From positions 1 through 25,989 of the IMG/VR virus record IMGVR_UViG_3300009508_000051: a stretch of DNA of 25,989 nt, one strand, 5' to 3'. Each line of letters opens with the position of its first letter. Positions within the stretch are counted from its first letter, which is position 1. The notes beneath the pieces were generated by a model that did not search any database, was not told the origin of the DNA, and worked only from the letters and a program-made list of their open reading frames with translations. This document shows positions 3,572 through 25,362 of the stretch, one piece after another. This stretch comes from a virus. A program made the position numbers and the translations under genes.

Positions 3572-3978
3572 TTAAGAACCCATGCGCTTTCTACATATTC
3601 ATTGTTTAATTTTATAAGGCCGTCTTTAGCCAAGAATACAGATCGTGAACCAAGTGAAATTCCAAAAGCTGACCCAGTAACCCAGCGTTGATTTACGCTT
3701 GTTGTCACAAGGCTTCCAAAAATTGGACTATCTATTCTTTTCATTTTGCTAGTCAAGCCATTGAAAAGTGTTGAATGTTTGAATTCCCTGCGCAAACTTG
3801 AAGCGTGTTTAGGCATTGAACCGTTCATATAACGTCCCATCCAATCATCAGCATATCCAACCCCATACATAGCACGAAAAGCATTATTCGTGAAGGTAAA
3901 GCAATCATTAACCCCCCACATGAACGGCTCATCCTTAATGTTGGATATGTATATATTTAATCGGTGCTTCGGCCCCAT
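3568..3978 (-). CDS. NlpC/P60-like (DUF6950-type) tail protein
   Basis: A 136-residue protein between the hub gene and J, where lambda K and the GTA cell-wall hydrolase lie. Residues 19-30 contain WGVNDCFTF, matching the W-G-x-x-D-C motif in which the cysteine is the nucleophile of NlpC/P60-like folds. The usual following histidine is hard to place: no clear GH motif is visible in the second half, where GSLVTTS and SAFGISLG occur, so it may be a structural, catalytically weakened relative. It overlaps the preceding gene by 22 bases and J by four. Expected role: local peptidoglycan cleavage or tail tip assembly during infection. Confidence 0.6.
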   Translation of the reverse strand: MGPKHRLNIYISNIKDEPFMWGVNDCFTFTNNAFRAMYGVGYADDWMGRYMNGSMPKHASSLRREFKHSTLFNGLTSKMKRIDSPIFGSLVTTSVNQRWVTGSAFGISLGSRSVFLAKDGLIKLNNEYVESAWVLK

Positions 3979-19370: not shown

Positions 19371-19790
19371 TCAGATATTTTCACTACTATCCAGTATTAA
19401 CTGTCGCAATCTTGTTGTTGACCAATTATGATACCTTTTATTGAAGTAAACATTTATTGGATAATCAAAGCCAGTAAATTTTTTCCCCTTATACTCTTCC
19501 CCAATAATTCTGACATCAATTGGGAGCGCTGCCATAAGGTGCAAAAGCTCATCTTCAGTTGAATAGCAAATGACCTCATCGACATATTTGACAGCATTTA
19601 ATTGTATCTGCCTTTCCATCAATGTCTGTATAGGCTTATTTTTTTCGGGTCTATCTACTGAGGGGTCAACCTGCAATCCAACAATCAAATGATCGCATAT
19701 AGATTTTGCCTCTTGCAGCATGGTTATATGCCCAGAGTGCAAAAGATCAAAACATGATGCCGTAAAGCCTATTTTATATTTCTTGTTCAT
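19371..19790 (-). CDS. Cytidylyltransferase-like nucleotidyltransferase (TagD/RfaE-like)
   Basis: A 139-residue enzyme of the HxGH nucleotidyltransferase superfamily: GFTASCFDLLHSGHITML (8-25), RPEKNKP (47-53) and the C-terminal NWSTTRLR (122-129), which matches the ISTTxxR motif. Length and motifs fit glycerol-3-phosphate cytidylyltransferase or ADP-heptose/FAD-synthase-like domains, which activate a phosphorylated small molecule with CTP or ATP. The substrate cannot be told from sequence. It overlaps the ParB-like gene before it by 17 bases and is the last gene before the terminase, so it belongs to the same operon as the glycosyltransferase and could supply its donor. Confidence 0.82.
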   Translation of the reverse strand: MNKKYKIGFTASCFDLLHSGHITMLQEAKSICDHLIVGLQVDPSVDRPEKNKPIQTLMERQIQLNAVKYVDEVICYSTEDELLHLMAALPIDVRIIGEEYKGKKFTGFDYPINVYFNKRYHNWSTTRLRQLILDSSENI

Positions 19791-20445
19791 CCTGATATTT
19801 TTTCTTTATGAGGATTTGTTGCTTAGTAACCCAAGCCTTTTTGTACTCGGTATTTTCAAACAACTTTGAGAAGCCAGTTATGTGCTTGAGGCGCAATAGC
19901 TCTTCCGGCTCCATACCAAGGTGATTGCAGATGTCTGCATCCTTCCAGCCCTGTTCCAACATTGAGAACACCATATTAGCCATACCATCAACGCTGTGCG
20001 AGCCTCTGGCCCTGTTATGGCGCACTGTAGCTGCCATACGCTCGTTTATGTCTTTCTCTATTACAACGATAGGTAAGCGGCCGTGGTTGCGATCCCTGAT
20101 GTCCTGATTGCTTTTGCAAGTGAAATATCTGTGGAAGCCATCAACTATTACGAATTTATCAAGCTCTTCATCATAGATAGTTACTATAGGCTGAGTATAA
20201 CCATCGTGCTTGATTGAGGTATATAGGAGCTTCATTTCTGCACCAGCTACACTATTGGGATTATAGTCATTTGCTTGTACGCGATCAATATTAACCCACA
20301 TCACCTGACCTACTGGTTGCTGGATTGGGTGCATTTCTTGAAGCTCAATCTTTAAGTCTTCTAAATAGTCAATTTTTTCTTGGTCCGAAAAATCTTCTAT
20401 TTCCTTGCGAATATGATCCGCGTTCGTTCCCCATGCCTCAGACAT
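19774..20445 (-). CDS. ParB/Srx-fold protein, IbrB-like
   Basis: A 223-residue protein. The ParB N-terminal core has NIDRVQANDYNPNSV, TQPIVTIYDEE and VDGFHRY (101-107), the G-x-H-R nucleotide-binding signature, then ATVRHNRARGSHSVDGM (140-155), the segment characteristic of IbrB-type proteins, followed by LGMEPEELLRLKHITG. The partner gene upstream is an IbrA-like PAPS-reductase-fold protein, overlapping by eight bases; IbrA and IbrB are a known pair from an E. coli prophage region where they act on expression of immunoglobulin-binding eib genes. The biochemical role is unsettled. ParB-fold proteins can bind or hydrolyse CTP or cut DNA. Confidence 0.85.
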   Translation of the reverse strand: MSEAWGTNADHIRKEIEDFSDQEKIDYLEDLKIELQEMHPIQQPVGQVMWVNIDRVQANDYNPNSVAGAEMKLLYTSIKHDGYTQPIVTIYDEELDKFVIVDGFHRYFTCKSNQDIRDRNHGRLPIVVIEKDINERMAATVRHNRARGSHSVDGMANMVFSMLEQGWKDADICNHLGMEPEELLRLKHITGFSKLFENTEYKKAWVTKQQILIKKKYQDEQEI

Positions 20446-21601
20446 TTACTGGTATCCAATCTTTGTGTTCTGATTTGCTTACAAACTTCATATCGCCACG
20501 CTTCCATCTCCTGAAAGTAATTGCATATGGGCTTTGTTCAAAATTACTGACTTTTGTAAAATCAATATCTTGAGCCAATATTGTTGTGACGTGAACTTTA
20601 TGCAACTTTGAAGGGTCTTTGATTAGCGCATAATCCTTGTCCATTTTTGCGAACTTCTTGCGCATGGCCTCCTGGTACTCAGGATCGGTAACAAGATTTA
20701 CCAATAGATGATCTCTGTATTCTTTCCAATCCTTGAACATATATGGTAATTTTTTGGCTTGGAACATATCCTCTTTGCTCATGTGACGAGCCTGATTTAC
20801 CCCATCCAAACGCTTAACCAGCTTGTTCCATGTATCCCGCTCAATCTCCTGTAAATAGAACAATTGATGCACAGCTGTTTCATGGTGAAGATTTGAAACC
20901 CGCATTTTTGTAGGGCTTACACCATATTGATAAAAATAATCGTACGCTTTTGCGTACTGCCAGTTATGGTCAAAGATGCTCTTCCAAATATCTGTATATG
21001 ACCAATCATAGAGGGGGTAAAAATTGTAATGATCTCTTTTCTTATCTACAGCCTTTCCCCAAGTAACCCATTTGTACGTTGCTGCGGTAGTTAATCCAGC
21101 AAGACGCGCTGGGCTTTCCTCAGCCCTAACACCCGCCAGAACAGCAAGCCTTTGGTCAGGCCAATGGTGCTTCATAATAGCTGGGAACATTTCATAGAAG
21201 CGATCTTTGCCATATACATTTTCTGTAATTGCAAAATCTTCTTTTGGACGCATCCAGTTTTCATCATCACCCTCAGTCCAGCAATGAAGATAGTGCTGTT
21301 CGTTAGATGTTGAGTTTGTCATTTTTATTGGAACCTGAAACCACATTGGATCAATGCGCGGGTCAGTCATTACGTCTCGGACATAATCAATGACATTCTG
21401 CCACTCAGCTTCTTGGTCAAGAAACATAACCTTCAATGGAAGGCGTCCCATTTCTTCCGCTACTATAAGGGCCATATTAAGGGTTACTGTGCTGTCTTTA
21501 CCACCTGAGAAAGACACAACAACCTCTTCAAATTCATTGAAAATATATCTGACACGCTCCAATGCAGCGTCCCAAACATTATCCTTGAGTTGTATTTTCA
21601 T
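20438..21601 (-). CDS. PAPS-reductase-fold protein, IbrA-like
   Basis: A 387-residue adenine-nucleotide alpha-hydrolase-like protein. SGGKDST (32-38) is the PP-loop that binds ATP; MFLDQEAEW (58-66) fits the following strand, GVRAEES (156-162) the next conserved element, and YPLYDWSYTDIW (194-205) is the sulfate-assimilation/DndC-like W-x-x-x-D-I-W motif. The 180-residue C-terminal extension is lysine-rich and matches the IbrA/DUF3440 class better than CysH, which is shorter and normally not paired with ParB. The gene lies between a methyltransferase-like gene and the IbrB-like gene, both overlapping. Likely role: adenylation or sulfur-type chemistry on nucleic acid or a protein; not proven. 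Confidence 0.85.
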   Translation of the reverse strand: MKIQLKDNVWDAALERVRYIFNEFEEVVVSFSGGKDSTVTLNMALIVAEEMGRLPLKVMFLDQEAEWQNVIDYVRDVMTDPRIDPMWFQVPIKMTNSTSNEQHYLHCWTEGDDENWMRPKEDFAITENVYGKDRFYEMFPAIMKHHWPDQRLAVLAGVRAEESPARLAGLTTAATYKWVTWGKAVDKKRDHYNFYPLYDWSYTDIWKSIFDHNWQYAKAYDYFYQYGVSPTKMRVSNLHHETAVHQLFYLQEIERDTWNKLVKRLDGVNQARHMSKEDMFQAKKLPYMFKDWKEYRDHLLVNLVTDPEYQEAMRKKFAKMDKDYALIKDPSKLHKVHVTTILAQDIDFTKVSNFEQSPYAITFRRWKRGDMKFVSKSEHKDWIPVNV

Positions 21602-23206: not shown

Positions 23207-23782
23207 TTATTTACCCGTAAAAACAAATATTTCAGCGCAATGTGGGCATATTACCTCAGTGCCCTCTTGACCCTTGATCCTATCACTCATGTCTTGATCC
23301 ATCCGGTCACTTGCCTTTTCCATCTTGCTGTCATCAATTTCTGAAGCGTCAAATTTAGGATCAAGAACTGGATTATAATTAAAGGCAGATAGGTCAATAT
23401 CTACTCCCATAAGTCCAAGATCATAACCATCGTTGGCCATCTCTTTCAATTGAACGAAATATTCATTTGTATCCCACTGACCATTTTCAGCCAGTTTATT
23501 GTCAGCTATTACATAAGCCTTTTTTTGTTGATCGGTCCAATCCCTTGCGGTCATGCAAGGAACCTCAGACAAATCAAGCTCTTTTGCTGCGAACAATCGC
23601 CCATGACCTGCAAGAACTTGGTCATTTTCATCAATCAAAATTGGAATAGTCCAACCCCACTCACGAATACTGTTCGCAAGTTGTTTTATTTGAGTATCCG
23701 GGTGAATTTTGGGGTTCCGATCGTAAGGGATAAGATCGTTAACCTTTCTCATTTCTACACTATTTGCAGCCCAATTTTCCAT
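23207..23782 (-). CDS. ParB/Srx-fold protein with zinc-ribbon-like end
   Basis: A 191-residue protein, first gene of the modification operon. RKVNDLIPYDRNPKIHPDTQIKQLANSIREWGWTIPILID (12-51) and VLAGHGRLFAAKELDLSEVPCM (56-77) match the ParB N-terminal domain seen in phage ParB-methyltransferase proteins, with G-H-G-R as the core motif. The following DWTDQQKKAYVIADNKLAENGQWD segment is the usual partner. Instead of a fused methyltransferase it ends in an acidic helix and CPHC (179-182) near the C-terminus, a half zinc-knuckle. Promoter, SD (GGGAG) and start are well-defined. Confidence 0.85.
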   Translation of the reverse strand: MENWAANSVEMRKVNDLIPYDRNPKIHPDTQIKQLANSIREWGWTIPILIDENDQVLAGHGRLFAAKELDLSEVPCMTARDWTDQQKKAYVIADNKLAENGQWDTNEYFVQLKEMANDGYDLGLMGVDIDLSAFNYNPVLDPKFDASEIDDSKMEKASDRMDQDMSDRIKGQEGTEVICPHCAEIFVFTGK

Positions 23783-23950: not shown

Positions 23951-24352
23951 TTACCATTTTTTAGCTAAGTTAGCCATCATTTCGTGTGATATACGTTTTC
24001 GCTCTTCTGCGTCTTGGCTCTTGCGCGAAGGCGCTTCAAGCTGAACCCTTGGGTGTGCTGCAACGTATCGTTTGCGATTGTTCATAAGTATCTGGCGAAC
24101 AAGCCCCTCATGTGGACGCTTGGAAGGATACTCAATAAGATAATCTGCACAAGCCTTGGTAATTTCATCCGCTGTGAAGTCTTGCAGCATATCCATCCAC
24201 CCCAGAAGGATATCACGCTTCACAAGCTCGTCTTGTGGCATCTGGAAAAACCTGCCCATAAGAGCCTGTGCTTTTATTGCAATGAAGGCGCGATGCTTAG
24301 TTAGTGTATCATCATCCATAACTGTGGATTGCAGTGCTGGCAGATTGCTCAT
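23951..24352 (-). CDS. Replication-partner protein, helicase-loader position
   Basis: A 133-residue helical protein directly coupled (ATGA) to the O-like initiator, the position of lambda P or DnaT/DnaC-like helicase loaders. GWMDMLQDFTADEITKACADYLIEYPSKRPHEGLVRQIL (about 51-89) is a pattern common in phage replication accessory proteins: a short helix, D-E-x-x-x-A, then P-x-x-R-P-x-x-G. It is much shorter than lambda P and no P-loop is present, so loader activity is an inference from order. Confidence 0.6.
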   Translation of the reverse strand: MSNLPALQSTVMDDDTLTKHRAFIAIKAQALMGRFFQMPQDELVKRDILLGWMDMLQDFTADEITKACADYLIEYPSKRPHEGLVRQILMNNRKRYVAAHPRVQLEAPSRKSQDAEERKRISHEMMANLAKKW

Positions 24353-24999
24353 CGGCTCACCCTCGCAAGATCATTTACCATATCGCGGAACATATGATCT
24401 ATACCATTTTGCTGTGGAGCCTCAATGTCATCATGCCACCGCTCCCCATTAAGCCAAGTGCTAAGATGTGGGATGAATTTGCTATCCTTGCCAACCAAGC
24501 TGTCAATGTATTGAGAAAGCAATTTGCAAAGCTCTCTTTCATCAATCTTTTTGATTGCCTTGGCCCACGCTTTTTCTGCATGGCCCTTTCCAACCTTCCT
24601 TGGATAAGCCAACCAAGCGTCATTGAACATATTAGGTTCAATTACATGGTTAGTACTTACATGGTTATTGGTGTCCAGATTTTGGATAGGGGGGGCTCCA
24701 GATTTTGGATAGCCCCCATCCAGATTTTGGATACCCATGTTAAGATCATATTCGTTTGAGGTTTGCTGCCCGTTTTCTCTGGCTCTACCTTTGCGCTTGA
24801 TAAGCCCTCTAAGCTCAAGTGCAGACAGATGTGTAAATACAGAGCTTGTGGACATATTGCAGTCCGCAGCTAATTTCTTTGTGCTAGGGAAACATCCCAT
24901 GTCTGGATTGTGTCTATCTGATAACATCAGCAAAACTATTTTTTGTGATGGTGTTAGGTCTGGCTGGTGCAATGCCCAAACTACAGCCTTCATGCTCAT
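24349..24999 (-). CDS. Replication initiator, lambda O-like, winged helix
   Basis: A 216-residue protein. Residues 15-85 form a winged helix-turn-helix (LTPSQKIVLLMLSDRHN..CFPSTKKLAADCNMSTSSVFTHLSALELRGLIKRKG), as in phage replisome organisers. Residues 88-122 are a linker encoded by iterons. The C-terminal domain has NMFNDAWLAYPRKVGKGHAEKAWAKAI (123-149) and SKFIPHLSTWLNGERW (173-188), the typical O-like end. AAGGA lies seven bases before ATG; the promoter candidate is at 25,029-25,056. It should bind the iterons through its N-terminal domain and recruit the helicase. Confidence 0.82.
   Translation of the reverse strand: MSMKAVVWALHQPDLTPSQKIVLLMLSDRHNPDMGCFPSTKKLAADCNMSTSSVFTHLSALELRGLIKRKGRARENGQQTSNEYDLNMGIQNLDGGYPKSGAPPIQNLDTNNHVSTNHVIEPNMFNDAWLAYPRKVGKGHAEKAWAKAIKKIDERELCKLLSQYIDSLVGKDSKFIPHLSTWLNGERWHDDIEAPQQNGIDHMFRDMVNDLARVSR
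24642..24667. repeat. AT-rich stretch with two 11-bp direct repeats
   Basis: TTACATGGTTA occurs at 24,642-24,652 and 24,657-24,667, 15 bases apart, in an AT-rich stretch that begins directly beside the iterons on the C-terminal side of the gene. In lambda the DNA-unwinding region has the same place relative to the O iterons. Confidence 0.5.
24674..24733. repeat. Three 15-bp iterons, probable replication origin
   Basis: TCCAGATTTTGGATA is present exactly at 24,674-24,688, 24,697-24,711 and 24,719-24,733 (steps of 23 and 22 bases). Each copy has a TCCA-N5-TGGA dyad. The copies fall inside the linker of the O-like gene; the first and third are read as IQNLD but the middle as YPKSG, so the DNA sequence, not the protein, is conserved. 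The middle copy is inside an inverted repeat of GGGGGCT and AGCCCCC. The whole matches the lambda ori layout of iterons inside gene O. Confidence 0.75.
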
Positions 25000-25151: not shown

Positions 25152-25181
25152 GTCTCTTGTCCTTTCATCGCGCGGGGCTTC
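25136..25181. promoter_or_regulatory. Long hairpin with a ribosome-binding site in its loop
   Basis: GAAGCCCTGCGC (25,136-25,147) pairs with GCGCGGGGCTTC (25,170-25,181), 12 pairs with one G-T. In minus-strand RNA the 22-base loop displays AAGGACA and the adjacent ATG; the stem begins inside the Cro-like stop codon. In plus-strand RNA the stem is followed by ATTTATTTTTAT and looks like a terminator. Which strand is meaningful cannot be decided here. Confidence 0.45.
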
Positions 25182-25362
25182 ATTTATTTTTATAAAAATA
25201 CTCAGACAGCTTTTCCAAAGTAAGCAATGATGGGTTTCCCTCATTCTTACGGATGCGAGAAAGAGACATATAAGTAAGACCGCACTTTTCAGCTACATAT
25301 GATAATCGGCGGTCAACCAGCTTGTTGCGAACCTGCTGTGCCGTTAGTAATTTTATGTTCAT
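25180..25362 (-). CDS. Cro/XRE-like HTH regulator
   Basis: A 60-residue protein from ATG 25,362 with GGAGAA just upstream; a much longer upstream-open frame exists but lacks support. QVRNKLVDRRLSYVAEKCGLTYMSLSRIRKNEGNPSLLTLEKLSEYF is a complete XRE helix-turn-helix (recognition helix about 31-40), the size of lambda Cro or P22-like repressors. It diverges from the rightward early operon, so it most likely controls the switch between them and may bind the AT-rich palindromes in the window. Confidence 0.8.
   Translation of the reverse strand: MNIKLLTAQQVRNKLVDRRLSYVAEKCGLTYMSLSRIRKNEGNPSLLTLEKLSEYFYKNK

Follow-up and report, generated by a model that had tools for sequence, protein, structure and literature searches.

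A lambda-plan replication origin probably lies within an initiator gene of a different family

The window analysed here, a linear virus record from IMG/VR that is 25989 bases long, very probably carries a replication origin inside its own initiator gene, in which the N-terminal domain (N-domain) of the product would bind iterons, an AT-rich stretch would open, and the C-terminal domain (C-domain) would recruit the helicase. The origin is lambda-like, and the initiator comes from a different family. As judged from comparisons of related sequences, the geometry of the iteron array is kept, the N-domain and the iterons change together, and a second repeat is held at the nucleotide level. The parts played by the two domains and by the second repeat are proposed by analogy with lambda O. 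Lambda O binds its inverted-repeat iterons as dimers, the AT-rich region is opened, and the single strands of that region are bound by O as well; two iterons and the AT-rich region are enough for unwinding (PMC5043065, PMC7466680). In the window, the winged-helix N-domain would bind three spaced iterons, probably with two subunits per dyad. Strain from this complex would open the AACC-GTAA repeats in the AT-rich DNA next to it, after which the replicative helicase would be brought in by the C-domain, perhaps via a small downstream gene.

The initiator (Table 1) matches phrog_270, "replication initiation protein", in a PHROG profile search, and Pfam HTH_36 at residues 15–67. AlphaFold2 predicts a winged helix (aa 1–88; pLDDT mostly 73–90, wHTH topology), a disordered linker (aa 91–121; pLDDT about 34) and then a helical C-domain. 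The best structural matches to the N-domain model were wHTH proteins, including RepA (4pql/4pt7; Z 8.7/8.5, rmsd 2.5 over 78–79 residues), whose score was tied with those of unrelated wHTH proteins. A search of solved structures by sequence gave no significant match, and DnaD_N reached 18.3 bits, under the Pfam cut-off of 27. The first-pass annotation had called the product an O-like initiator. As a phrog_270 initiator with a wHTH N-domain it earns that name, but it lies outside the Pfam family of lambda O, PF04492 (Phage_rep_O), which matches lambda O (5.7e-36) and P22 gp18 (6.9e-38) and does not match the window initiator, where HTH_36 is found instead. With hhalign, the window initiator gave E-values of 0.44 against lambda O and 0.11 against P22 gp18, which are not significant and come from single-sequence targets; some PHROG O-like profiles match both the window initiator and lambda O.

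Table 1. Features of the putative origin and its surroundings (positions in the window)
Feature	Position	Strand	Basis or remark
O-like replication initiator gene, 216 aa	24349..24999	-	phrog_270 3.1e-39; HTH_36 4.1e-11; AlphaFold2 model
Winged-helix N-domain coding DNA (aa 1–88), putative iteron reader	24736..24999	-	AlphaFold2, structure matches
Iteron 1, first on coding strand	24719..24733	.	exact 15-mer, TCCA-N5-TGGA
Arm AGCCCCC of inverted repeat around iteron 2	24711..24717	.	
Iteron 2, other reading frame, within G/C inverted repeat	24697..24711	.	exact 15-mer
Arm GGGGGCT of inverted repeat around iteron 2	24691..24697	.	lineage-specific, probably accessory
Iteron 3, adjoining AT-rich side	24674..24688	.	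exact 15-mer
AT-rich second repeat, three AACC units: two AACCATGTAA, then GAACCTAATA on coding strand	24634..24668	.	
Helical C-domain coding DNA (about aa 122–216), exchangeable module	24349..24636	-	AlphaFold2; identities independent of N-domain
133-aa gene overlapping initiator stop, in lambda P position	23951..24352	-	
Small Cro/CI-type HTH gene upstream	25180..25362	-	HTH_3 5.1e-06 on longer ORF; start picked by inspection

With a Cro/CI-type HTH gene upstream of the initiator, the gene order is lambdoid-like. The C-domain would serve to recruit the helicase or its loader, and the initiator genes of relatives adjoin DnaB-type helicase genes, or a lambda P gene in the case of Pasteurella. 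The 133-aa product that follows the window initiator has no Pfam (including PF06992) or PHROG assignment and no significant hhalign match to lambda P, and its model (single-sequence fold, pLDDT 56) was too poor for use. The contig is a fragment, and its GC skew, of nearly one sign along the whole length, is uninformative.

The 15-mer TCCAGATTTTGGATA occurs in three exact copies, all of them TCCA-N5-TGGA dyads as first described, and nowhere else in the window, over the whole of which 1.4 chance matches with up to three mismatches are expected. A lone dyad of this type, TCCAAAAATTGGA, lies at 3715–3727, far from the initiator gene, and is probably due to chance. The three copies are spaced 23 and 22 bp apart and occupy codons about 89–109 of the initiator gene, so that, together with the AT-rich repeats, they fall inside the predicted disordered linker or at its edge. 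The span first proposed for the element, 24642–24733, fits, and a third AACC unit extends it to about 24634. On the coding strand the iterons start in frames 1, 2 and 1, which bears out the remark that the middle copy is read in another frame, from which the first-pass annotation reasoned that selection acts on the DNA, and none of 300 synonymous-codon resamplings reached the dyad array of the window. The same two results count against the idea that the repeats serve the protein, as partner-binding copies of a linker peptide (IQNLD / PKSG). IQNLD is encoded twice and Gly/Pro-rich linkers are kept in relatives, but a peptide would not explain the same DNA being read in two frames, or an array destroyed by synonymous resampling, in a linker that is predicted to be disordered; we find this explanation barely credible.

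Relatives were drawn from IMG/VR and GTDB contigs, a choice that biases all counts toward close sequences, and the array was fitted in 18 window-type genes as three sites at 21–24 bp spacing only. Thirteen of the 18 have the exact 22/23 spacing in frames 1, 2, 1; the spacing is 23/23 in L160–L162, and L139 has four iteron copies. A scan without fixed spacing recovered the same site positions in most of these genes. The window, L168 and L139 have the half-site TCCA, L140–L142 have TGYA/TACA, L152 has TGWA/TACA, L154–L158 have TGCA and L160–L163 have TGTC/GACA. Thus the spaced array is kept among relatives, but the 15-mer itself is not conserved (half-sites TCCA, TGTA, TGCA or TGTC). Synonymous resampling gave P values no higher than 0.003 for the window, L139, L157, L158, L161 and L163, and of 0.013–0.047 for L140–L142, L152 and L154–L156. 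The dyads of L143–L150, L153 and L162 are degenerate and not significant by this test, which is weak for degenerate arrays, and the dyad score alone was often not significant in distant GC-rich Rhodobacterales genes. We also looked for the same initiator with no repeats: window-type linkers keep three spaced sites, with one exception in the set, L165 (19–20% C-domain identity), whose GTGACA-type repeats were left unfitted by the dyad scan. A loose IMG/VR scan for paired TCCA-N5-TGGA dyads was too permissive and was set aside. In L191, the last iteron, from gene position about 350, is lengthened to a palindrome of 19 bp, GTGTCCAGAATCTGGACAC, with TAACC immediately after it.

Swaps between relatives point to the N-domain and the iterons as a recognition pair. 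The window and L140–L142 share 92–97% identity in the C-domain and 58% in the N-domain, and have different iterons. At the DNA level, identity is 47–70% as far as the end of the iterons and 85–97% in the first blocks past them, so that the joint falls within the AT-rich repeats, immediately after iteron 3. By these sequence patterns, L140–L142 are natural recombinants. L143 shows the opposite pattern (N-domain 80%, C-domain 49% identity to the window), and among relatives the level of C-domain identity is not tied to that of the N-domain. Because the patterns of L140–L142 and L143 are opposed, we take the N-domain with its iterons to be one module and the C-domain to be another; a swap of N-domain and iterons as a unit is what an origin-recognition pair predicts. 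By inspection, in a small sample clustered by kinship, the half-site goes with the recognition-helix residue that precedes a conserved serine: S for TCCA, K for TGTA and R for TGCA. The natural swaps offer ready-made pairs from which a recognition code relating recognition-helix residues to half-sites could be worked out.

The AT-rich stretch on the C-terminal side of the iterons contains, as first reported, two copies of an 11-mer, TTACATGGTTA, at 24642 and 24657. By comparison with the relatives, these 11-mers belong to a class of second repeats, AACC-N1-2-GT(A/C)A, that is newly recognised here. AACC-N1-2-GTAA units lie directly 3' of the last iteron in window-type relatives and in most Rhodobacterales relatives; L160–L163 have a weaker form, AAACAGGTAA. 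In enterobacterial, Vibrio, Pasteurella and Microbulbifer members the units are of the GAACCAGTCA type, and a member from an Arthrobacter phage has GAACCGTCC. In relatives from both alpha- and gammaproteobacteria, AACC-N1-2-GT(A/C)A is conserved as a nucleotide motif. Since it was located by its protein pattern, the choice of Val codon was not preselected, yet Val is encoded by GTA at 88 of 88 positions inside the motif vs. 93 of 529 elsewhere, relatedness inflating the larger count, and at 15 of 15 vs. 25 of 125 in ten representatives (P 7e-10). Among genes of high GC content, with GC3 as high as 0.80, the motif itself falls to a GC3 of 0.38–0.44 in most, and stays at 0.62–0.69 in L182, L209 and L211. 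A scan for the gamma form, GAACCAGTCANNGAACCAGTCA, found at least 120 loci. Among the matches listed, 117 of 120 lie in initiators of this kind: 112 match an N-domain profile, contig ends truncate three further initiators, and another two look like initiators in a misassigned frame (by eye, from the printed DNA); three are unrelated. All 112 profile-matching loci among those listed have some repeated 8-mer upstream, which is a loose criterion. Firmicute relatives (Brevibacillus, pPR9) have internal repeats and no clear AACC-GT repeats, and AACC-GT repeats were looked for and not found in the lambda and P22 origins. No paper on the gamma motif or its peptide turned up in a full-text search of the open-access literature, which is weak evidence of novelty.

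Rhodobacterales prophages (L169–L211) have the N-domain, iterons and AACC-GTAA repeats in common with the window, and a C-terminal half that is longer and, by eye, unrelated. Because these share the repeat despite the unrelated C-terminal half, the second repeat does not follow the C-domain. Its position and composition suggest that AACC-N1-2-GT(A/C)A is the unwinding element. A more tentative idea, less likely than not, is that this element is sequence-specific and read as single strands by the initiator family, and is conserved across proteobacterial phages while the double-stranded iterons diversify freely. DnaA-trios, which are recognised as single strands by DnaA, offer a parallel for such reading. 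How initiators choose the site of strand opening is an open question for iteron origins, and for initiators of this kind the conserved second repeat offers a defined candidate answer.

The middle iteron is enclosed, as the first-pass annotation noted, by a GGGGGCT/AGCCCCC inverted repeat. The repeat is real, but it is specific to a clade, and its synonymous choice is not significant in the window (P 0.117); the value is low (0.008) only for L150. The arms are present in the window, L168 and L139–L150, and by inspection in L165, and they persist through the N-domain swap. They are absent in L153–L157 and L160–L163, and we rejected them as a conserved signal of the family. We read them as a lineage habit of GC-rich Gly/Pro spacers that is at most accessory to the origin. 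Their absence from these relatives, with the synonymous test in the window, also makes it highly improbable that the working element is a G/C-armed hairpin in single-stranded DNA or RNA, of which the iterons would just form the stem. The 86-nt element does fold far better than shuffled sequences on either strand (z about −4), and hairpins have been noted for lambda iterons (PMC7466680), but palindromic repeats fold well by construction.

The closest parallels in plan are lambda O/ori-lambda and the Stx phages P27 and 933W, in which, as in the window, the origin lies in the middle of the initiator gene (PMC7466680). The order of N-domain, iterons, AT-rich region and C-domain is that of lambda O/ori, and the iteron sequence differs, both as first described. 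Like those of the window, the iterons of lambda, P27 and 933W are near-palindromic with a 5-bp centre and starts 20–24 bp apart, and those of lambda, by their annotated positions, also fall in several frames. These phages have four or six iterons of other sequence vs. three in the window, their AT-rich region is likewise on the C-terminal side but lacks AACC-GT repeats, and lambda O belongs to PF04492 rather than HTH_36. P22 gene 18 has an annotated origin inside the gene, with TTTACC-N5-GGTAAA dyads that are N5-centred like those of the window; their centres, AGATC and AAATC, resemble the AAATC of the window. Its initiator, in contrast, is of PF04492 and is followed by its own DnaB-type helicase, and its second repeat, by eye ACAAAAGACAATA-like, differs from that of the window. 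By eye, the lambda (L213) and P22 (L352) origins seem to share an AT-rich repeat of their own, ACAAAAGACANTA, immediately beyond the iterons. It may be that every initiator family has a conserved second repeat peculiar to it.

The annotated P22 origin also bears on whether the repeats are instead operators at which the winged-helix protein would repress the operon that encodes it. The N-domain resembles repressors of the MarR, LexA and Fur types, and dyads are typical operators. However, the sites lie about 270–325 nt inside the coding sequence, with no further copy upstream of the gene, and the conserved AT-rich repeats and helicase-linked relatives, like the P22 origin, fit an origin. We consider autorepression very unlikely.

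The nearest experimentally supported precedent for the window system is pPR9, a staphylococcal plasmid which, like pSK41, has its origin inside rep, as in the window (PMC5703833). In both rep proteins the N-domain reads the boxes and the linker is dispensable, and pPR9 is a natural swap, in which a pfam13730 N-domain and its origin replace those of pSK41 rep; the pPR9 rep region supports autonomous replication (PMC5703833). The pPR9 N-domain was assigned to pfam13730, the Pfam family of the window initiator (PMC5703833), although its HTH_36 match was below the cut-off in our Pfam scan. The C-domain (Bac_RepA_C) and repeats of pSK41 and pPR9 rep differ from those of the window. Initiators of PHROG 270, 391 and 1032, from prophages and phage-plasmids, have N-domains homologous to that of the window, and their E. 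coli, Klebsiella, Vibrio and Pasteurella members have internal repeats and AACC-GT repeats, with half-sites and C-domains that differ from the window and GTCA instead of GTAA. The lambda plan, with the origin in the initiator gene and the DNA-reading domain and iterons swapped jointly, appears to be used by a separate family, widespread in phages and phage-plasmids. Rac ydaU (annotated DUF1376) and e14 ymfN of E. coli K-12 were considered as origins of the same kind and rejected, as neither has AACC-GT repeats in its linker.

Elsewhere in the window, a phosphoadenosine phosphosulfate reductase-like gene (20438–21601, minus strand; phrog_2302 at 6.5e-85) has two ParB-like genes nearby, at 19774–20445 and 23207–23782.
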